Shown piece by piece: positions 15,667 through 29,620 of a stretch of DNA of 64,000 bases. The notes beneath the pieces are model-generated. The model saw nothing but the letters and a program-made list of their open reading frames with translations. It was not told the DNA's origin and did not search any database. The first letter of the stretch is position 1. Every line of letters begins with the position of its first letter. The position numbers were made by a program, and so were the translations under genes. Where the stretch lies: contig NZ_JACHDN010000001.1 of assembly GCF_014201095.1 (NCBI RefSeq), positions 186,001 through 250,000 on the forward strand. Reading direction: 5' to 3'. Origin of the DNA: Cellulomonas hominis (GTDB lineage Bacteria; Actinomycetota; Actinomycetes; Actinomycetales; Cellulomonadaceae).

Positions 15667-16662
15667 GTGGTGAGGCTGCGACGGGTCCGGATCGACTCCC
15701 CGGGGTGGACCCGGCGCCGTGCGGGGCGGGGGTTCGCCTACCTGGACGCGGACCTGGTCCGGATCAGCGACCCCGAGCACCTGGACCGGATCGTCGCGCT
15801 GGCCATCCCGCCGGCGTGGCAGGACGTGTGGATCAGCCCGTGGCCGAACGGGCACATCCAGGCGGCCGGCCTGGACGACGCCCGGCGGCGGCAGTACCTC
15901 TACCACGAGCAGTGGCGGCGGCGCCGCGACCGGCTGAAGCACGACCACGTGCTCGACGTCGCCCGCCGGCTGCCGTCCGCGCGCCGCTCGGTGCGCCGCG
16001 ACCTGGCCCTGCCCGGGTTCCCCCGCGCGAAGGCGCTGGCGCTGTCGTTCCGGCTGCTCGACCTCGCGTACTTCCGGGCGGGCGGCGAGGGCTACGCGCA
16101 GCGGAACGGCTCGTACGGCCTGGCGACGCTGCGCCGGGAGCACGTGCAGGTGCTCACCGACGACGACGGCGCCGAGAACGCCGTGCGGTTCCGCTACCCC
16201 GCGAAGTCGGGTCAGGTGCGGGACGTCGTCGTCGAGGACGAGCAGGTCGCGGCACTGGTCGGCACGCTGATGCGGCGGCGCGGCGGCGGTCCGGAGCTGC
16301 TGGCGTGGCAGGACGACGACGGGTGGCACGACATCACGAGCGCCGAGGTGGGCGCCGACGTGAAGCTGCGGCTCGGCCCGGACGCGAGCCCGAAGGACTT
16401 CCGGACGTGGCACGCCACCGTGCTCGCCGCGCGCGGGCTGGCGGCCTCCGGGCCGGCGCCGGCGTCGGAGCGCGGGCGGCGGCGGGTCGTCGCGCAGGTC
16501 GTCAAGGACGTCTCGACCGAGCTGGGGAACACCCCCGCGGTGTGCCGCGCGTCCTACATCGACCCGCGGGTGGTCGAGCTCTGGGCGCAGGGCAGCACGA
16601 TCCGGCCGACGCGGTCGCAGGCGGTCGCGGAGAAGGAGACGCTGGCACTGCTGGCGGGCTGA
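15667..16662 (+). CDS. DNA topoisomerase IB (poxvirus-like)
   Basis: Type IB topoisomerase of 331 residues that relaxes supercoils through a 3'-phosphotyrosyl intermediate. The N-terminal domain has GFAYLDAD and IPPAWQDVWI. The catalytic core includes KALALSFRLLD, the SYGLATLRREHV region, FPAKSG-like YPAKSGQVRDV and the catalytic Y297 in CRASYIDP. Bacterial TopIB genes of this kind are common in actinobacteria. Two consecutive GTG codons (15667, 15670) could both serve as start. Confidence 0.93.
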   Translation: MVRLRRVRIDSPGWTRRRAGRGFAYLDADLVRISDPEHLDRIVALAIPPAWQDVWISPWPNGHIQAAGLDDARRRQYLYHEQWRRRRDRLKHDHVLDVARRLPSARRSVRRDLALPGFPRAKALALSFRLLDLAYFRAGGEGYAQRNGSYGLATLRREHVQVLTDDDGAENAVRFRYPAKSGQVRDVVVEDEQVAALVGTLMRRRGGGPELLAWQDDDGWHDITSAEVGADVKLRLGPDASPKDFRTWHATVLAARGLAASGPAPASERGRRRVVAQVVKDVSTELGNTPAVCRASYIDPRVVELWAQGSTIRPTRSQAVAEKETLALLAG

Positions 16663-19781: not shown

Positions 19782-21362
19782 TCACCGCCGCCGGTCGCCC
19801 GCGGCGCGGCGCGCCTGCTCGCGGCAGGTCGCGAGGTCGGCGAGCACCGCCTCCGCGGGTCCGGTGACCCGCTCACGGGCGACCGCCGCGACCGCCGCGT
19901 GCAGCCGGGCCCGGGCCCGCCGCGCGCGCCGCCGCGCCACGAGCCGCGCGACCAGCCCGGCGAGCAGCGCGAGCACGAGCCCGGCGAGCAGCCCGCCGCC
20001 GAGCAGCGCCGTCGGCACGGGGAACGGCCCCCACTCGGGCGTCCGCGGCTCCGGGAGCCGCAGGTAGGCGAGGACCGCGAGCACGCCGAGCCACAGCGCC
20101 CCTGCGACCGCCGCCCCGAGCAGCACGTACTGCACGAGCCCCAGCCCGCGGGCCCAGCCCGGGGCGCGCTCCGCGAGCAGCGGCGTCCCGGCGACCGCCC
20201 GGTCCAGGTCGTCGCCGAGGTCCGGCGCACCCACCGCCGAACGGACCGCGAGCGCCCACGCGTCCGGCGCGCCCGCGGTCGTCGCGTCCACCGACCGCCG
20301 GACCGCCGTCGCCGCGGCCGCCCGGGTGGCCGGCCCGGGGACGGGCAGGGACGTGCGCTCGACCGCCGCGCGCGCCTCGCCGTCCAGGTGCAGGCGGCGC
20401 AGCGGATCGGGGCGCAGACGCTGGAGCCAGCGGACCGGGGGCCAGCCGGCGGAGGCGGTCGCTCGGCGGACGGACGCCCGGCGCACGGCGTCCACGACGA
20501 GCGGGACCCCGGCGGCGTCCGCGAGGGCCGCGGTGAGCGCACCGTCGTCGGCGGGCCGCCCGCGTCGGCGCGGCGCACCCTCCCCGCACGCCTCCAGCAC
20601 CCGGCGCGCCGCGACCTCGACGTCCGCGGTCAGCCGGCGGTTCGCCGCCTCCCGGCGGGCCGCCGCGGCGTCGAGCAGCGCGCGCAGGTCCGGCAGCCCG
20701 TCGCCCGTGCGCGCCGACACGGCCAGCGCCCGCACCGGCCCGAGCCCGTCCTCGGCGGCCAGCCGGCGCAGGTCGCCGAGCACCGCATCCGTCTCCGCCC
20801 GGTCCAGCCGGTCGGCCTGGTTGAGTACGAGGACCAGCACGTCGGCGTGCCGGGCCAGCGGCCGCAGGTACCGCTCGTGCAGCGCGGCGTCGGCGTACTT
20901 CTGCGGGTCGACCACCCAGACCAGCAGGTCCACGCGGGCGATGAGGTGCTCCGCGCGGACCCGGTGCTCCCGCACGACCGAGTCGTGGTCGGGCAGGTCG
21001 AGCAGCACCAGGCCGCCGCGACCCGGCTCGTCGGGCAGCGCGTGCCGCTGCCGGACCCCGAGCCAGTCCAGCAGCGGCTCCGCCCCGGCGCCCCGCACCA
21101 CGGCCAGCGCCTCACCGGTGGTCGGCCGCTGCACGCCCGCGCGCGCGACCTCCCGGCCGACCAGGGCGTTGAGCAGCGACGACTTCCCGGATCCGGTCGC
21201 GCCGGCCAGGGCGACGACGGTGTGCTCCGCCGAGAGCGCCACCCGCTCGCCGGCCCGCGCGACGACGGCGCGCCCGTCCGCCACGACGTCGGCCGGCAGG
21301 CGGCCCTCCCCCGCGTCGAGCGCCGCGGCGAGGGCGGCGACGCGGTCCGCGAGCGCGGTCAT
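19782..21362 (-). CDS. membrane-associated P-loop GTPase A1 (YfjP/Era-like, DLP partner)
   Basis: GTPase of 526 residues. The N-terminal G domain has G1 GATGSGKSSLLNAL, G3 LLDLPDHDS and G4 NQAD. The C-terminal half carries hydrophobic segments at about residues 415-440 and 455-485, each compatible with a membrane helix, and ends in an Arg-rich tail. The ATG at 21362 overlaps the TGA of gene B1 by 4 nt (ATGA), so translation is coupled. It is paralogous to A2 at 26153, with the same RPTT, WVVDPQKYADAALH and NQ(A/V)D signatures. Adjacent dynamin-like pairs are known in Streptomyces (DynA/DynB) for septation; a similar role is inference. Confidence 0.88.
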   Translation of the reverse strand: MTALADRVAALAAALDAGEGRLPADVVADGRAVVARAGERVALSAEHTVVALAGATGSGKSSLLNALVGREVARAGVQRPTTGEALAVVRGAGAEPLLDWLGVRQRHALPDEPGRGGLVLLDLPDHDSVVREHRVRAEHLIARVDLLVWVVDPQKYADAALHERYLRPLARHADVLVLVLNQADRLDRAETDAVLGDLRRLAAEDGLGPVRALAVSARTGDGLPDLRALLDAAAARREAANRRLTADVEVAARRVLEACGEGAPRRRGRPADDGALTAALADAAGVPLVVDAVRRASVRRATASAGWPPVRWLQRLRPDPLRRLHLDGEARAAVERTSLPVPGPATRAAAATAVRRSVDATTAGAPDAWALAVRSAVGAPDLGDDLDRAVAGTPLLAERAPGWARGLGLVQYVLLGAAVAGALWLGVLAVLAYLRLPEPRTPEWGPFPVPTALLGGGLLAGLVLALLAGLVARLVARRRARRARARLHAAVAAVARERVTGPAEAVLADLATCREQARRAAGDRRR

Positions 21363-23260
21363 CCGGCGTCCGCCCCGCCGAGCAGCCGGCGCCAGAACCC
21401 CGGGCGCCGCGGTGCCGGGGGCGCGTCCTCCGGCGGCGGGGCGGCGTCGGCGCCCCGCAGGCGGTGCGGTGCGGCCGCGGGGCGGTCGTCCTGCGACCCG
21501 GTCCCGCGCGCCGCCCGCTCCGTCCCCGAGGCGGCGCGCGCGGCGTCCGTCACGGCCCGCAGCGCGTCGCCCGCCGTCAGGCCGAGCGCGTCGAGCTGCG
21601 CCGTGTACCGGTCGGCCTCGCCCGCGAGCACCGCGCGGACGCGCTCGTCCAGCCGTTCGCGCGCCGTCGCCGTCAGCCGGCGCACCGCGTCGTCGCCGAA
21701 CACCGCCTCCAGCAGCTTCTGCGCCACGACGGCAGTGCCGCCGGCGATGCCCACCTCGATGCCGGTCAGCCCGCCCGTCGAGGCGAACGCCAGGACCATG
21801 AGGCTCACCCCGAGCGCGTTCACGCCGAACGACAGCGCCCGCGCCGTCCCGCGCCGCTCCGCGCCCTGCTCGCGCACCAGCTCGAGCACGTCCGCCTGCC
21901 AGGCCCGCACCTGCCCGTCGACCTCGGCCCGCAGCGCGGCGGACGCCCGGGACAGGTCGAGGTCCGGCAGCAGCCCCGCGCCCGCGGGGTCCCCGCGCCA
22001 CGCCGCGTGCGTGCGCTCCGCCGCCCCGTCCGCGGCGTCGAGCACCACGGCCGCGAGCCCGTGCGCGATCGCCTGCTCGACCGGCGGCACCGGCGCGGGA
22101 CGGCCGCGCAGGAACCCGGTGACGGCGTCCCGCACCCGCCCGACGCGCCGCTCGACCGCGCGCACCAGGTCGCCCGTCCCGACGAACTCCTGCCACCTCG
22201 CCAGCACCTCGCCGCGCAGCAGGGCGCCGTCCGAGGTCGCGGCGGCCACCTGCGCCCGCGCGTCCCCGTAGGCCCGGTCGACGGCGGCCCGCAGCCGGGC
22301 GCCCGCCGCGACCTGCTCGTCCGCCGCGTCCGCGAGGCGCGCCGCCCGCCGGACCAGGTCGTCCACCGCGCCGTCCCTGGTCAGCACCGCGACCGACCGG
22401 CGCGCCGCCGCGTCCCCACCCAGGTCCGACAGCCACGCCGCCACCGGCCCGACCGCCGCCTCGGGCAGCATCCCGCCGTCGTCCAGCCCCTCCGGCACGG
22501 CGAACAGCGGCGCGTCCACGAGCCCGTCCGAGTCGAGCATCCGGCGCAGGTCCGCGACCGCCGCCTCGGACCCCGGGTCCACCCGGTCGACGACCAGCGC
22601 CACCTGGGCGTGCCGCTCGGCCGCGCCGTGCAGCAGGTCCCAGGGCACCGCGTCCGCGTACCGGGCGGCCGTCGTGACGAACAGCCACAGGTCCGCAGCG
22701 GCGAGCAGCTGCGCGGCGAGCCGGCGGTTCGCGACCTCCACCGAGTCGACGTCGGGGGCGTCGAGCAGCGCCAGCCCGCGGGGCAGTGCCTCGCTGGGGA
22801 CCAGCCGCAGGGCGGCGGCGCCGTCGTCCCCGGACTCGGCCACCCCCGGGGCCGCACCGGTGACCCGGGCCATCCCCGGGAGCACCCGGTCCCCCGTGAA
22901 CCACCGGGCGTCGAGCGGGTGGTGCACGAGCACGGGCGAGCGGGTCGTCGGCCGCAGCACGCCCGGGACGCTGACCCGCTCGCCGAGCAGGGAGTTCAGC
23001 AGGGTCGACTTCCCCGCCCCGGTCGAGCCGCCGACCACGACGAGCAGCGGGGCCCCCTCGGCGCGCAGGCGCGGGAGGAGGTAGTCGTCGAGCTGCGCGA
23101 CGGCGGCGGCCCGGTCCGCGCGGGCGTCGGCGGCACCGGGGACGTCCAGCGGGAGCGGGAGGTCACCGAGGCGCAGGTGCAGGCGCTCGAGCGCGTCGAC
23201 CAGGGCGGCGGTCGCGACCGTCGGCGGCGCGGGGTCCGCGGGGGGCGTCGGGTCGGCCAT
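21359..23260 (-). CDS. dynamin-like GTPase B1
   Basis: Dynamin-family protein of 633 residues. The G domain has G1 [16 protein letters not shown]2-like RPTTRSPVLVHH and G3 LLDAPDVDS. A long helical stalk follows, and a hydrophobic hairpin lies at about residues 500-545 (FGVNALGVSLMVLAF...GIAGGTAVVAQKLLEAVFG), the usual membrane paddle position. The ATG at 23260 follows CAGACT by 6 nt, a leaderless-type promoter. It overlaps A1 by 4 nt. Paralogue of B2 at 27661. Confidence 0.88.
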   Translation of the reverse strand: MADPTPPADPAPPTVATAALVDALERLHLRLGDLPLPLDVPGAADARADRAAAVAQLDDYLLPRLRAEGAPLLVVVGGSTGAGKSTLLNSLLGERVSVPGVLRPTTRSPVLVHHPLDARWFTGDRVLPGMARVTGAAPGVAESGDDGAAALRLVPSEALPRGLALLDAPDVDSVEVANRRLAAQLLAAADLWLFVTTAARYADAVPWDLLHGAAERHAQVALVVDRVDPGSEAAVADLRRMLDSDGLVDAPLFAVPEGLDDGGMLPEAAVGPVAAWLSDLGGDAAARRSVAVLTRDGAVDDLVRRAARLADAADEQVAAGARLRAAVDRAYGDARAQVAAATSDGALLRGEVLARWQEFVGTGDLVRAVERRVGRVRDAVTGFLRGRPAPVPPVEQAIAHGLAAVVLDAADGAAERTHAAWRGDPAGAGLLPDLDLSRASAALRAEVDGQVRAWQADVLELVREQGAERRGTARALSFGVNALGVSLMVLAFASTGGLTGIEVGIAGGTAVVAQKLLEAVFGDDAVRRLTATARERLDERVRAVLAGEADRYTAQLDALGLTAGDALRAVTDAARAASGTERAARGTGSQDDRPAAAPHRLRGADAAPPPEDAPPAPRRPGFWRRLLGGADAG

Positions 23261-23377
23261 GGGGCCAGTCTGCCGGTCCGCCCGCCGGGACGCCCGGCCG
23301 TCGGGCGAGCGAGCCGCTGCGCTGACGCGCAGGCCCGCGCGCGCCGTCAGGCCCGCACGCCGAGTGGCCCGCACGTC

Positions 23378-23431
23378 GAGAGGAGGCTTCTGCTGCGACA
23401 CGCCGGGCGTGTCGGGCAGAACCCTCCACTC
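23378..23431. repeat. 54-bp intergenic palindrome, copy 3
   Basis: Left arm GAGAGGAGGCTTCTGC, core CGACACGCCGGGCGTGTCGG, right arm GCAGAACCCTCCACTC. Located between ettA (ends 23547) and B1 (starts 23260), both on the minus strand, so it is not restricted to convergent gene ends. An extra CGAGTGG fragment lies just left at 23361. Confidence 0.9.
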
Positions 23432-23498
23432 GGCGACGGCCCCGCGCCCAGGGGACCCCCGTCGCCCATGGGTCCACCGCCCGCCCCCGGACGCACGA

Positions 23499-23533
23499 CG
23501 GCGGCGGGCACCCTCCTCGGGCGCCCGCCGCCG
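23499..23533 (-). terminator. terminator of ettA
   Basis: Perfect 11-bp arms CGGCGGCGGGC (23499-23509) and complement (23523-23533), directly downstream of the ettA stop. Confidence 0.8.
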
Positions 23534-23546
23534 GCGGTGGTGCGCG

Positions 23547-25229
<1,683 letters not shown>

Positions 25230-25446
25230 TGGCTCTTCGTCCGCCTCGGTGCTCGTCGGGTGCTCAGGTGGTGCGCGTCGCGTCGCGTCCGCGCGGGGGC
25301 GGGCGGTCGGGCGGGGTGCCGGGCGACGTCGCGGTCCCCCAGCCTAGGCGATCCGCGCGCTGGGGACACGGCCCCCGCGACCACCCCGCCCGCCGGCGCG
25401 CGGGCACGTCCTCGCGCGCCCCGCCCGCACCCCGCCCGCGGGCGGC

Positions 25447-25983
25447 TCAGGTCCCGGTCGCCGGCTCGTCGTCCAGCACCGTCGCCCCGCTGAGGTCGAC
25501 CGGCGCCGCGAGCCGCAGCCCCTCGCCGGCGCCCGCCTCCGCGTCCGCCGCCCGCCCGTCCGCCGCGCCGCCCGCCGCGCCCGCCGCGTGGCTCCCCGCC
25601 TGGCCCCCGTCGTGCACCGTCCGCATGAAGTCGGTCCGCCCGCGCCCCAGGTCGTGCCCGACGGCCTCGGCGACGAGCTCGGCGGTCGTGCGGGTGTGCC
25701 CCTCGGGCGAGGTCCAGTCGTCGAGCCGGAGCCGCCCGTGCACGACGACGGGGTCGCCCCGCCGCACCGACGCGGCGACGTTGCTCGCCAGGCTCCGGAA
25801 CGCCTTGACCGTGAACCAGTTCGTCGGGGCGTCGACGTACGCGTCCTGCTCCCGGTCGTACACGCGCGGCGTGCTGGCGAGCCGGAACTTCGTGAACGGG
25901 ACCCGCCCCTCGTCGTTGACGTGCAGGGTGGGCTCGCTGCCCACCCAGCCGACCACCGTCAGGCTGAGCTCGTTGACCGCCAT
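25447..25983 (-). CDS. ssb: single-stranded DNA-binding protein, SsbB-like (no acidic tip)
   Basis: OB-fold SSB of 178 residues. The N-terminal 110 residues carry LTVVGWVGSEPTLHV, the F(T)KFRLAST strand, TNWFTVKAFRSLASNV and GDPVVVHGRLRL, typical of bacterial SSB. The tail is short and ends DDEPATGT rather than the DDxIPF tip that recruits repair proteins. That resembles Streptomyces SsbB, which acts in chromosome segregation, more than the essential SsbA. ATG 25983 has GAGGAGG upstream; the open frame before it is not SSB-like. It sits between GTPase A2 and ettA. Confidence 0.88.
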   Translation of the reverse strand: MAVNELSLTVVGWVGSEPTLHVNDEGRVPFTKFRLASTPRVYDREQDAYVDAPTNWFTVKAFRSLASNVAASVRRGDPVVVHGRLRLDDWTSPEGHTRTTAELVAEAVGHDLGRGRTDFMRTVHDGGQAGSHAAGAAGGAADGRAADAEAGAGEGLRLAAPVDLSGATVLDDEPATGT

Positions 25984-26152
25984 GCGTCCTCCTCGTCCGT
26001 GCCGGCGCCCGGACGGGCCGGCCGTGACGGGAACGCTGCCGCGTCGACCGGGGTCTGTGGGCCCGCGCACCGCCCGACCTGGGGACCACGCACGCCGTCG
26101 CCGCCTGTGGAGGAGTCGGTGACCCGTGATCACGCGGATCCTGGCCGCGGCC

Positions 26153-27664
26153 TCAGCCCTCGCGCGCCCCCGCGAGCAGCTCACGGACCCGCCGGTGCTC
26201 CGCGAGGACGGCGCGCGTCGGCGCGGCCAGGCAGCGCTCGGCCACCCCCTCGAGCGCCACGCGCCCGTCGCGCCGGACCCCCTCGGCCCGCCGCAGCGCC
26301 GCCGAGCGCCGGGCGCGCACCGCCAGCACCCCGCACAGCACCGCCAGCGCGGCGAGCACCACCGCGAGCGGCCACGCCGGGCGCAGCGCGTCGGCCACCC
26401 CGCCGCTGCCGAGCGCGAGCCCGGTGCCGATGGCCAGCGCGATCACCGCGGACACCGCGAGCACGAACGTCAGGGCGGACAGCGTCGCCGCGAGCCCCGA
26501 CCGCCGCGCCACGACCGCGACCCGGGACAGCGCCTCGTCGGCGTCCGCCCGGATCTCGTCGGTCCCCGCCAGCCCCGCGCGCACGGACTCCGCCCACCGG
26601 CGCGGCAGCCGCGCGGTCACGCTGTCGGCCCACTGCCCGCGCGCGAGCGCGACGGCGCCCGGCTGCACGGCGACGAACGACGGCACCGGGTCCTCGCTCC
26701 CGCGCACGACAGCGGCCACGGCGTCGGCGATCGCCGGGAGCCCGGCCGCCTGCGCGAGCGTGATCGCGACCGGGGTGACGTCCAGGGTCTCGTCGGCGGG
26801 CTCGGCGTCGGCGACCTCCGCCGACACCAGCCGCGCCGCGTCGGCGATCTCGGCGGACCCCCGGCGGGCGGCCAGGCTCTGCCGGGCGACCACGCGCGCC
26901 AGGGTGTCCCGCATCTCCGCGACGCCCTCGCCGGTCCGGGCGGAGGCGGTGCGGACCTCGACGCCCGCGAGCCCGTCCTCCACCAGCAGCCGCCCGAGGT
27001 CCGCGACCAGCGGCTCCCGCTGCTCCGCAGGCACGGTGTCCACCTGGTTGAGCACGACGATCATTGCGCCCTCGTGCCCGACGAGCCGGCGCAGGTACCC
27101 GGAGTGCAGGGCGTCGTCGGCGTACTTCTGCGGGTCGACGACCCAGACCAGCAGGTCGGCCATCGGCAGCAGCCGGTCCACCGCCGCGCGGTGCGCGGGC
27201 TCGATCGAGTCGTGGTCCGGCAGGTCGAGCAGCACGAGCCCGCGCAGCGGCGCCTCGGTCTCGCCGTCGAGGGCGCTCTCCCGCTCGATCCGCCGGTCCG
27301 GCTCGACCTCGAGCCAGTCGAGCAGCGCCTCGCCGCCGCTCCCCCAGACGCAGGCGGCGGCGTGCGCGGTCGTCGGCCGCTTGACCCCGACCTCGGCGAA
27401 GTCCAGGCCGCAGATCTCGTTGAACAGGCTCGACTTGCCCGACCCCGTCCCCCCGAGCAGCGCCACGACGGTGTGGTCGACCCCGAGCGCGAGCCGGGCC
27501 CGGACCTGGTCGCCGATCGCCCGGACGCGGGTGGCGGTCGCGGCGTCGATGCGGTCGCCGCCGACGGCGAGGGCCTCGTCCAGCCGGGCGAGCCGGCGGG
27601 TGAGCGCGGCGGTGTCGCTGCGCGGGTCGGCCTCGGACGCGGGGACCACGGGCTCGTCGGTCAT
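26153..27664 (-). CDS. membrane-associated P-loop GTPase A2 (paralogue of A1)
   Basis: GTPase of 503 residues with G1 GGTGSGKSSLFNEI, RPTTAHAAACVWG, G3 LLDLPDHDSIEP, WVVDPQKYADDALH and G4 NQVD. Two hydrophobic stretches at about residues 392-420 and 430-450 probably anchor it in the membrane. Same design as A1 but clearly diverged, so the duplication is old. ATG 27664 overlaps the stop of B2 by 4 nt. It is followed after 169 nt by ssb on the same strand. Confidence 0.88.
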   Translation of the reverse strand: MTDEPVVPASEADPRSDTAALTRRLARLDEALAVGGDRIDAATATRVRAIGDQVRARLALGVDHTVVALLGGTGSGKSSLFNEICGLDFAEVGVKRPTTAHAAACVWGSGGEALLDWLEVEPDRRIERESALDGETEAPLRGLVLLDLPDHDSIEPAHRAAVDRLLPMADLLVWVVDPQKYADDALHSGYLRRLVGHEGAMIVVLNQVDTVPAEQREPLVADLGRLLVEDGLAGVEVRTASARTGEGVAEMRDTLARVVARQSLAARRGSAEIADAARLVSAEVADAEPADETLDVTPVAITLAQAAGLPAIADAVAAVVRGSEDPVPSFVAVQPGAVALARGQWADSVTARLPRRWAESVRAGLAGTDEIRADADEALSRVAVVARRSGLAATLSALTFVLAVSAVIALAIGTGLALGSGGVADALRPAWPLAVVLAALAVLCGVLAVRARRSAALRRAEGVRRDGRVALEGVAERCLAAPTRAVLAEHRRVRELLAGAREG

Positions 27665-29346
27665 GTCAGCCCCTTGATGACGGCGAGGCGCAGGCGCAGC
27701 AGCGAGGCCGCGTCCGGGCGCAGCTCGGGACGGTCCAGCACGGCGGCGGCCGCGTCGCGCTCGCGCCCGGCCTGGTCGGCGGCGTGCTCGGCCAGCCGGT
27801 CGCGCAGCGCGGCGACGGCCGCCTTGCCCTGCGCGCCGAGCAGGTCCACCAGCATCCGGCCGGCGGCGTCGAGTCCCGCGGCGGCGGCCAGCGCGAGCGC
27901 GGCGAGCCCCTCGTCACCGAGCGCCCGCCGGGCGGCCGCGGCCCGCTTGCCGGCCTTCGCGGCGGCACGACGGGCGGCGCGGTCGGCGCCCGGGGCCGGC
28001 TCGACGGCCGATGCGTCATCGAGCACCTCGACGGCCCCGGCGACCCACTCGCGCGCGGCGCGCTCGACCTCGCGCGGCCGGTCCGCGGCGCGGTCCGGCC
28101 AGTCGGCGGCCACCGACGTCCCGCCCGCCGGGCCGGTGGCCAGGGCGTCGCGCAGCTCCCGCTCGGCGGCGGCCCCCACGGCGGCGAGCGTGGACGCCGC
28201 GGACGACACCAGGTCCTGCACCAGCGGCAGCACGGCGGTCGCGCGCTCACGCCCGGTGCGGCGGGAGCGGTCCACCCGCCCCGACCCCCGCACCACGTCG
28301 GCGAGCGGCGCACCCGGCGCGGTGAGCTCGGCCCACCGGGCCTGCGCCGCGCCCTGCGCGACGGCGCCGCGGGCGACCGTCCGGCGAGCCTCCTCGGCGG
28401 GTCCGCGCACCGCGTCGTCCAGCGCCTCCCGGATCGTCGTCGCCGCCTCGGCCTGCGTGTCGACCGCCTCGGCGAGCTCGTCCACCCACGGCCGCAGCGC
28501 CGCCAGCGAGCCCCGCAGCGTCCGGGCCACGACGGTCCGCGCCCGGTCCGGCCCGGCCAGCATGGTCAGCCAGCGGGTGATCGGCGCGACCCGCGCGGCG
28601 TCCAGCAACCCCTCGTGCGGCCCGAGGTCCGGCACCACGAACAGCGGCGACCCCTGCATCCCGTGCCCGCGCAGCCGCTCCAGCAGGTCCCCGCGCACGG
28701 TCGGCAGCGACGCCGGGTCGACGCGGTTCAGCACCATCGCCACCGACGCCCCGCGGTCCGTGGCCTCGCCGAGCACCCGCCAGGGCAGCGCGTCGCCGTA
28801 CCGGGCCGCGGTCGTGACGAACAGCCAGAGGTCGGCGGCCTCGAGCAGCCGGTGCGCCGAGCGGCGGTTGCTCTCCAGCACCGAGTCCACGTCCGGGGCG
28901 TCCATCAGCGCGATCCCGCGCGGCACCCGGTCCGAGGCCACGACGTCGACGGCGTCCGTCACGGGGTGCTCGCGCACCAGCTCGGCGTCCTCCGGGTGGT
29001 GCACCAGCACCGGCCGGCGGGTGGTCGGCCGCAGCACGCCCGCCTCGCTGACCTCCTCCCCCACCAGGGAGTTCACCAGCGTCGACTTGCCGGCGCCCGT
29101 CGACCCCGCGACCACGACGATCGCCGGCGCCGAGAGCTGCCGCAGCCGGGGCACGAGGTGGTCCGCGAGCTGGTCGACCAGCCGCGTCCGGGACGCCCGC
29201 GCGGACTCGGCCCCCGGGACGTCGAGCGGGAACGCCGTGGCCCGCACGTCGCGCAGCAGGTCGGTCAGCGCGTCGAGCAGGGACGTGGCGGCGAGCGGCC
29301 GGTCGAGGACGTCCCTCGCGGCCGAGCTCCCCGCCTGCGCATTCAC
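27661..29346 (-). CDS. dynamin-like GTPase B2 (paralogue of B1)
   Basis: Dynamin-family protein of 561 residues with G1 AGSTGAGKSTLVNSL, RPTTRRPVLVHH, G3 LMDAPDVDS and an AADLWLFVTTAARYGDALPW segment shared nearly word for word with B1. The C-terminal half is long, helical and Ala-rich. The obvious hydrophobic hairpin of B1 is weaker here and is replaced by an Ala/Leu-rich stretch. The GTG at 29346 has GAGGA at 7-nt spacing; a GTG two codons earlier is less well spaced. First gene of the B2-A2-ssb-ettA-B1-A1 run. Confidence 0.87.
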   Translation of the reverse strand: MNAQAGSSAARDVLDRPLAATSLLDALTDLLRDVRATAFPLDVPGAESARASRTRLVDQLADHLVPRLRQLSAPAIVVVAGSTGAGKSTLVNSLVGEEVSEAGVLRPTTRRPVLVHHPEDAELVREHPVTDAVDVVASDRVPRGIALMDAPDVDSVLESNRRSAHRLLEAADLWLFVTTAARYGDALPWRVLGEATDRGASVAMVLNRVDPASLPTVRGDLLERLRGHGMQGSPLFVVPDLGPHEGLLDAARVAPITRWLTMLAGPDRARTVVARTLRGSLAALRPWVDELAEAVDTQAEAATTIREALDDAVRGPAEEARRTVARGAVAQGAAQARWAELTAPGAPLADVVRGSGRVDRSRRTGRERATAVLPLVQDLVSSAASTLAAVGAAAERELRDALATGPAGGTSVAADWPDRAADRPREVERAAREWVAGAVEVLDDASAVEPAPGADRAARRAAAKAGKRAAAARRALGDEGLAALALAAAAGLDAAGRMLVDLLGAQGKAAVAALRDRLAEHAADQAGRERDAAAAVLDRPELRPDAASLLRLRLAVIKGLT

Positions 29347-29490: not shown

Positions 29491-29563
29491 GCCTCCATAG
29501 CTCAATGGATAGAGCAACGGCCTTCTAATCCGTCGGTTGCAGGTTCGAGTCCTGCTGGGGGCA
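29491..29563 (+). tRNA. tRNA-Arg (anticodon TCT)
   Basis: Complete cloverleaf: acceptor GCCTCCA pairs with TGGGGGC, D-arm GCTCAATGGATAGAGC, anticodon loop CTTCTAA giving TCT, and T-arm GCAGGTTCGAGTCCTGC. The CCA end is not encoded (CACC follows). A TACCCT box upstream at about 29447 may be its -10. Confidence 0.96.
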
Positions 29564-29620
29564 CCCTCCACCCGCCCGACCCCTTGCCGTGACAGGCACC
29601 GCAGGAGTTGGCTTGCCCCC

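Follow-up and report, generated by a model that had tools for sequence, protein, structure and literature searches.

Two pairs of genes for dynamin-like GTPases, each consisting of a B gene followed by an A gene, flank ssb and ettA on the minus strand of a 64,000-nucleotide stretch of Cellulomonas hominis DNA (the window; contig NZ_JACHDN010000001.1), which belongs to a genome of one contig with 4,489,147 bases. The order of transcription is B2-A2-ssb-ettA-B1-A1, and the question raised by this locus is whether the doubled set represents a distinct membrane-remodelling or division system, as proposed in a preliminary description of the same DNA, or a system of a known kind. As the rather probable answer we favour that B2-A2-ssb-ettA is the actinobacterial dynAB-ssb-ettA locus, that B1-A1 is a second canonical pair of other lineage, and that the two pairs have split roles. 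For this answer, the gene order, conservation, the fold of B1, the presence or loss of a hairpin motif and the rejection of tandem duplication (on combined data) were computed. The kind of system is not new; new is the co-location of two DynAB-type pairs with opposite hairpin states.

Four dynamin-like GTPases and the hairpin of the B proteins

All four GTPases scored above the Pfam gathering score of 27 bits for Dynamin_N (Table 1), indicating that they are bacterial dynamin-like proteins, with predicted GTP hydrolysis and membrane binding. Identity was 36% between A1 and A2 (522 aligned positions) and 45% between B1 and B2 (404 positions); the alignment of A1 with B1 was confined to the G-domain region, with 36% identity over 195 positions. 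The preliminary description had reported a dynamin-like nature, sharing of WVVDPQKYAD between A1 and A2 and of LWLFVTTAARY between B1 and B2, C-terminal membrane segments in the A proteins, and the same gene order and 4-nt ATGA coupling in both pairs within the six-gene order. All these were borne out, with the four GTPase genes open over the coordinates of Table 1 and two C-terminal hydrophobic segments each in A1 and A2 by hydropathy. None of the NCBIfam models listed in comparison with the GTPases reached its cut-off. The six-frame search of the whole genome for Dynamin_N detected six places, namely B1, B2, A1 and three elsewhere; A2 was absent from these hits, though its protein scores just above the cut-off (28.8 versus 27 bits). 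The three other places, above cut-off and outside the window (G000:C1:898956, 2398933 and 3154175), may be other GTPases. Anti-phage dynamin systems (LeoA/LeoBC, PADLOC) were rejected as candidates, since the G-domain matches to their profiles were short or weak, the best reaching 28.1 bits over 28 residues.

In the structural model of B1, a helical trunk (neck/trunk bundle) follows the G domain, and a hydrophobic helix (residues 475-493), a low-confidence loop and a second helix (residues 507-521) are inserted between long trunk helices. In the A1 model only the G domain was firmly placed. A prediction devoid of dynamin-type stalk and membrane regions, named in the preliminary description as evidence against a dynamin, was thus not what the B1 model gave. 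Nostoc BDLP1 (bacterial dynamin-like protein; 2j68, 2j69) was the top Foldseek match of both the B1 and A1 models at 13-14% identity; mycobacterial IniA was among the top fold matches of both, and Campylobacter Cj-DLP1/Cj-DLP2 (5owv, 5oxf) appeared in the fold lists with 10-15% identity to the models. As the sequence-only PDB search with B1 had no hits at E 0.001 and was dominated by P-loop proteins at E 1, the fold evidence rests on the models. In BDLP the paddle is a hairpin of helices placed between trunk helices three and four (PMC6715688; papers are cited here by PMC accession, each represented by excerpts). Because the B1 hairpin likewise sits between trunk helices, it may be regarded as a paddle-like element by topology, with predicted membrane contact.

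The distribution of the hairpin was followed with a motif profile trained on 24 pairs of other families (13 ssb-linked, 11 unlinked), without rows from B1, B2, family f65, Streptomyces or genome G014. These 24 rows come from the 50 pairs in two groups of other pairs (20 linked, 30 unlinked). The motif was present in all 28 B1 proteins (72-100 bits) and absent from B2, none of the 34 scoring above 3.7 bits. None of seven Streptomyces B proteins reached 20 bits. For family f65, only one of 16 ssb-linked B proteins reached this level (23.1 bits), and all nine B proteins of second pairs did so. Among the remaining pairs of the class, 20 bits were reached by 18 of 20 ssb-linked pairs (13 of the 20 being training rows) and by 27 of 30 unlinked pairs (11 being training rows). 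The motif was therefore found in 45 of 50 B proteins outside this family, f65, f9 and G014, with 24 of these 50 used for training. The five misses were L132, L135 and L155 of family f67, L168 and L174, and four of them (L135, L155, L168 and L174) are short domain hits. Within f67, the motif is weak or absent in the B proteins of L132, L135 and L155, while the linked B proteins of L113 and L131 keep it. Genome G014, from another family of the order, has both kinds of pair, one scoring 1.3 and the other 83.1 bits. Among the 16 f65 genomes with a linked pair, nine had a second pair among the fetched loci; these nine (L104-L107, L111, L112, L115, L116, L140-L149) combine a weak-motif ssb-linked pair with an unlinked canonical pair, a separate doubling. 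The opposite hairpin states of the two co-located Cellulomonas pairs, as judged from sequence, had been overlooked in the preliminary description.

Conservation in the family and the actinobacterial B-A-ssb-ettA locus

Within Cellulomonas, B2-A2 was located before ettA in all 13 genomes (C. hominis and 12 congeners), and ssb was found between A2 and ettA in 12 of them, but not in G004 (L029 7640-10802). B1-A1 was detected behind ettA in 10 of the 13 and not found in G004, G005 and G010. The count includes G012, in which one contig ends inside ettA and B1-A1 lies on another contig beginning with the end of ettA. A thioesterase gene directly follows ettA in G005 and G010; elsewhere it follows A1.

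Prevalence was counted in a survey of 81 family genomes from 24 genera, drawn evenly. A B2-type match was observed in 78 genomes (best E 2.1e-82 or better) and a B1-type match in 69 (best E 2.1e-123 or better), and the two types are separable because cross-matches between them were weaker, no better than about 1e-71. Both types were present in 69 genomes, B2 only in nine, B1 only in none and neither in three. For 66 of the 69 genomes with both types, B2 and B1 were on one contig and strand with B2 upstream and 4.0-10.8 kb between the matches (median 4.3), indicating that the arrangement exceeds chance; for the other three (G415, G396, G420) they were on different contigs. The doubling is family-wide and found in most members. 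Co-occurrence of the pairs in relatives, which the preliminary description had set as its test, was thus observed, and confinement of the set to one genus was not. The three genomes with neither type (G395, G416, G431) all belong to genus g203 and are small, 2.5-2.8 Mb.

Among 20 family regions, fetched for containing a hit and so as to span genera and hence no random sample, 17 carried the complete B2-A2-ssb-ettA-B1-A1 set, and three (G406, G392, G404), already known to lack B1, carried B2-A2-ssb-ettA. Mean pairwise identity over the 17 loci was 52% for A1, 49% for A2, 56% for B1, 50% for B2, 48% for ssb and 91% for ettA. B2-A2 is thus the slightly faster-evolving pair, and the arrangement was kept while the proteins except EttA diverged. 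In locus L262 (5692-11233; G444), some 2.6 kb separate the B2 domain from the A2 domain, which sets it apart from the other fetched family members.

Outside the family, protein P0003 was matched in 39 of the 148 phylum genomes, and the A1/A2 profile had hits in 164 of 246 genomes of the class, a number of them at E only about 1e-4 and probably other GTPases. From 100 loci, likewise picked for containing a hit, we obtained 109 B-A pairs, of which 58 lie before ssb and/or ettA, 11 behind ettA, all from this family, and 40 beside neither within the fetched stretch, some stretches ending with the contig. A 4-nt start/stop overlap (ATGA, GTGA or TTGA) fits 114 of 146 B-A pairs. Since coupled pairs recur in this way across loci, a translationally coupled B-A pair, often before ssb-ettA, is an old actinobacterial feature. 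In the 941-residue metagenome protein P0247, the B sequence continues into the beginning of A; the scrambled look of its tail points perhaps to a frameshift rather than a true fusion.

A Streptomyces scan was made with the A protein of the f9 genome L138 as query. Among the best 80 of at least 518 loci (78 Streptomyces, one Kitasatospora, one unclassified actinobacterium), B was located upstream in all 77 testable cases and ssb downstream in all 78 such cases; ettA was present in 54 of 71. We take sven2472 to be dynA and sco2683 to be ssbB. The gene sven2472 equals sco2685 (PMC3765725); DynA is vnz_12110 and DynB vnz_12105, together a 'dynAB operon' (PMC6428758), and DynB, which contains two transmembrane segments, is an interaction partner of DynA and of divisome proteins (PMC8748795). 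The last source also places DynB orthologues outside Streptomyces, unicellular actinobacteria included. The locus order, the vnz gene numbers and the transmembrane segments of DynB together suggest that the ssb-linked pair of Streptomyces is very probably dynA-dynB, B being of the DynA type and A of the DynB type. Sharing this conserved actinobacterial B-A-ssb(-ettA) locus with the Streptomyces pair, B2-A2 is no new system. Streptomyces DynA/DynB had been mentioned in the preliminary description as a neighbouring pair; such an adjacent pair exists, but it is the type case for B2-A2 and not of another kind.

The ssb gene encodes a genuine single-stranded DNA-binding protein (SSB) and ettA is unambiguous (Table 1). 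The label 'segregation-type SSB' in the preliminary description reportedly goes back to work on Streptomyces SsbB. No text on Streptomyces ssbB was found in the literature searched, including excerpts of PMC4754617. The chances appear to us evenly balanced that the link of the pairs to ssb and ettA is a conserved neighbourhood only, without shared function. The loose spacing of the genes, with gaps of 169 nt (A2-ssb), 217 nt (ssb-ettA) and 286 nt (ettA-B1), the G004 congener with A2 directly before ettA and no ssb found between them, and the 40 pairs not found beside ssb or ettA are in favour of a neighbourhood; the linkage of 58 of 109 pairs across many families of the class argues against it. 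Only for B2-A2 is the supposed tie to ssb an old one: B1-A1 comes after ettA, and in three further families of the order (L032, L034, L134) neither ssb nor ettA was found beside its relatives.

Table 1. Features of the doubled GTPase locus, with positions in the window
Feature	Position	Strand	Basis
B2, dynamin-like GTPase, DynA (B) type, ssb-linked, without C-terminal hairpin motif	27661-29346	-	Dynamin_N 40.1 bits; start uncertain, 29346 or 29352 (gene caller)
B2 residues 479-507, aligned opposite the B1 hairpin motif; Ala-rich, motif lost	27826-27912	-	alignment, motif profile
B2/A2 start/stop overlap ATGA, 4 nt	27661-27664	-	sequence
A2, dynamin-like GTPase, DynB (A) type, two C-terminal hydrophobic segments	26153-27664	-	Dynamin_N 28.8 bits; hydropathy
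A2 hydrophobic segments (two), residues 400-418 and 431-449	26318-26467	-	hydropathy
ssb	25447-25983	-	PF00436 68.1 bits; lowest-scoring of three SSB genes in the genome
ettA, ABC-F translational throttle	23547-25229	-	NF008775 925 bits, cut-off 599
B1, canonical B-type dynamin-like GTPase	21359-23260	-	Dynamin_N 41.8 bits; model pLDDT (predicted local distance difference test) 84.2
Hairpin motif of B1 (residues 475-526), flanked by two trunk helices in the model	21683-21838	-	model and motif profile
B1/A1 start/stop overlap ATGA, 4 nt	21359-21362	-	sequence
A1, A-type dynamin-like GTPase, two C-terminal hydrophobic segments	19782-21362	-	Dynamin_N 33.9 bits; model pLDDT 90.5
A1 hydrophobic segments (two), residues 413-431 and 458-476	19935-20126	-	hydropathy

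Near the cluster, a tRNA-Arg gene (anticodon TCT; 29491-29565, plus strand) lies on the opposite strand just upstream of B2. A gene for bacterial topoisomerase IB (15667-16662, plus strand) is also present in the fetched stretches of seven of the 12 congeners.

Origin of the second pair

The final trees were calculated for 62 pairs, hand-picked from 146, with A and B concatenated and the motif columns removed (1028 columns, LG+F+G4); from earlier trees, six of 109 pairs had been left out for short domain hits. In the unconstrained best tree, B2-A2, together with the linked pair of G014, was joined to the ssb-linked pairs of the order's other families. The B1-A1 clade (SH-aLRT, the Shimodaira-Hasegawa-like approximate likelihood-ratio test, 95.5) was located inside a group (99.9) that it shares with the f67 linked pair and with unlinked pairs from three further families of the order. 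Forcing all motif-less pairs together, which would place B2-A2 in a clade with Streptomyces dynAB, was not rejected and cost 18.0 log units (p 0.192 in the approximately unbiased, AU, test), forcing B1-A1 with B2-A2 35.9 (p-AU 0.031; p 0.105 in the Shimodaira-Hasegawa, SH, test) and forcing B1-A1 with the order's linked pairs 59.0 (p-AU 0.0097). When A and B were tested singly on the fixed topologies of the combined trees, each ranked the favoured tree first, and the sole AU rejection by a single protein was that of B1-A1 with the order's linked pairs, by B alone (0.0067). As we read these trees, B1-A1 would be a separate canonical pair, acquired by transfer or derived from an older paralogue, that took its place just after ettA in the ancestor of the family; several losses followed, and most members retained it.

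The pairs had been called paralogous in the preliminary description, which stands in the wide sense of the word; a simple tandem duplication was rejected by AU, on the combined data only. In-place duplication within the family, with the two copies ending up on either side of ssb-ettA, would account for the alike gene order and ATGA coupling and for both pairs adjoining the ssb-ettA block, and yet we consider it improbable, given that p-AU of 0.031 and the grouping of B1-A1 with pairs of other families, not with B2-A2. An old paralogy, in which motif-less ssb-linked and motif-bearing types split early in the class, the hairpin was lost once, and differential loss and moves followed, is in our estimate unlikely, if better placed than tandem duplication. 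In this family, f65, Streptomyces and G014, the loss of the motif indeed falls on the ssb-linked pair, and the grouping of motif-less pairs was not rejected, with p-AU 0.192 for 62 pairs and, in earlier tests, 0.736 (B alone) and 0.708, with likelihoods above the quick tree in both. A fast LG+F+G4 search with 56 pairs also placed it within 2 log units of the unconstrained tree (-80661.9 versus -80659.9), with -80667.8 when the two Cellulomonas pairs were grouped and -80678.4 for the order-linked clade. The same reading needs replacement at the same locus, as ssb-linked B proteins of other families mostly keep the motif (the 18 of 20 given above, 13 being training rows), and the preference for the other tree amounts to 18 log units on the combined data, 12 with A only and 7 with B only; the fuller 62-pair search reversed the 56-pair ranking. 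In quick trees B2-A2 was located on a long branch. Since the likelihood rose above the quick tree by 37.8 units when B2-A2 was held with the order's linked pairs, and by 13.2 units when all motif-less pairs were held together, quick trees were not used for the verdict.

Proposed roles and comparison with known systems

From relatives we infer membrane insertion, A-B pairing and localisation with a septal role, and likewise a division of labour between the pairs. Each pair would be a heteromeric bacterial dynamin with translationally coupled A and B, in which A is anchored by its two C-terminal membrane helices, B docks on A, and GTP-driven contacts between G domains assemble the pair on the membrane. 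Because B1 carries the paddle-like hairpin, B1-A1 may touch the membrane through both partners, B1 inserting by its own hairpin, and would be a remodelling or tethering pair. B2, with the hairpin lost as in Streptomyces DynA, would rely on A2; being without hairpin, it may act through A2, so that B2-A2 would form a GTPase scaffold at the division septum, anchored by A2, as DynAB does for Z-rings. B2-A2 would then serve as a DynAB-like scaffold and B1-A1 as the fully membrane-active pair. We regard as speculative the wider proposal of a two-module six-gene machine, in which scaffolding and membrane insertion are split between co-located heteromers with possible A/B exchange, the same split having arisen separately in at least one further actinobacterial family, and Streptomyces DynA being what is left of one such split.

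The pairs might instead have a part in membrane stress or repair, a role proposed for DynA of B. subtilis and, under drug stress, for IniA. Such a role in place of division is suggested by the fold matches to BDLP and IniA and by the stress and repair roles proposed for other bacterial dynamins (PMC6104087, PMC6715688). We hold it to be a minor possibility, as the Streptomyces locus very probably encodes an established divisome pair, and DynB orthologues co-occur with SepX in unicellular actinobacteria (PMC8748795).

Several points weigh against a resident dynAB-type locus joined by a second pair with a split role. The favoured grouping of B2-A2 has an SH-aLRT of 86.7; a motif-less ssb-linked clade was rejected neither on combined data nor by A alone (p-AU 0.254) or B alone (0.336), and tandem duplication was unrejected by SH, by A alone (AU 0.149) and by B alone (AU 0.094). 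The final tests were made under LG+F+G4 only, the constraint groups were picked after earlier trees had been seen, and the 56-pair search ranked the hypotheses differently. Motif loss is not strictly tied to doubling, because seven f65 genomes with a weak-motif linked B show no second pair among the fetched loci; Streptomyces also shows the loss, with a single pair. The Foldseek matches had low TM-scores (template modelling scores), the top hits reaching 0.23 and 0.30, and for A1 the top VIA rows were Era-like G domains. Identification of the Streptomyces pair as dynAB rests on gene-number adjacency, gene order and transmembrane segments, and leans on a sole strong A match per f9 genome among the matches listed; the S. 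venezuelae sequence was not among the data behind it. Cellulomonas is non-sporulating, and the Streptomyces role may therefore not transfer to it. For Cellulomonas, the case is built on sequence and models.

Bacterial dynamin pairs are thought to need heterotypic assembly, and it is unclear which partner bends or holds the membrane. A family with adjacent pairs that differ in the presence of the B hairpin amounts to a separation-of-function experiment made by nature, and conservation throughout a family outside the sporulating bacteria makes it a tractable setting for the role of such pairs. Streptomyces DynA may be reframed as a derived form without the motif of most sampled actinobacterial B proteins, and conclusions drawn from DynAB may for this reason not describe the ancestral machine. 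No report on dynamin-like proteins in Cellulomonas or on this doubling was found among the titles of the matches listed from open-licence PMC text, a weak check.

Among known systems, Streptomyces DynA/DynB is alike in its neighbouring B and A genes, followed by ssb and, at more distance, by ettA, in the two transmembrane segments of the A-type partner (hydrophobic segments here) and, for B2-A2, in a B-type partner without the hairpin motif. It differs from Cellulomonas, where a second, motif-bearing pair lies behind ettA and the host family is non-sporulating; the orthology of B2-A2 is proposed by locus, not by a resolved clade. Mycobacterial IniA, among the best fold matches of B1 and A1, is encoded in another operon, iniBAC, and to our knowledge has no linkage with ssb-ettA. 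The solved structure of Nostoc BDLP1 is that of a single protein, unlike the A-B pair here. As the best Foldseek match, BDLP1 resembles B1 in a hairpin placed, as its paddle is, between trunk helices (PMC6715688). The Campylobacter Cj-DLP1/Cj-DLP2 proteins of the fold lists belong to another phylum, at the low identity given above, and no doubled set is described for them in the excerpts of PMC6104087; according to the same source, they are encoded by side-by-side genes, as are A and B here, and form a heterotypic complex.

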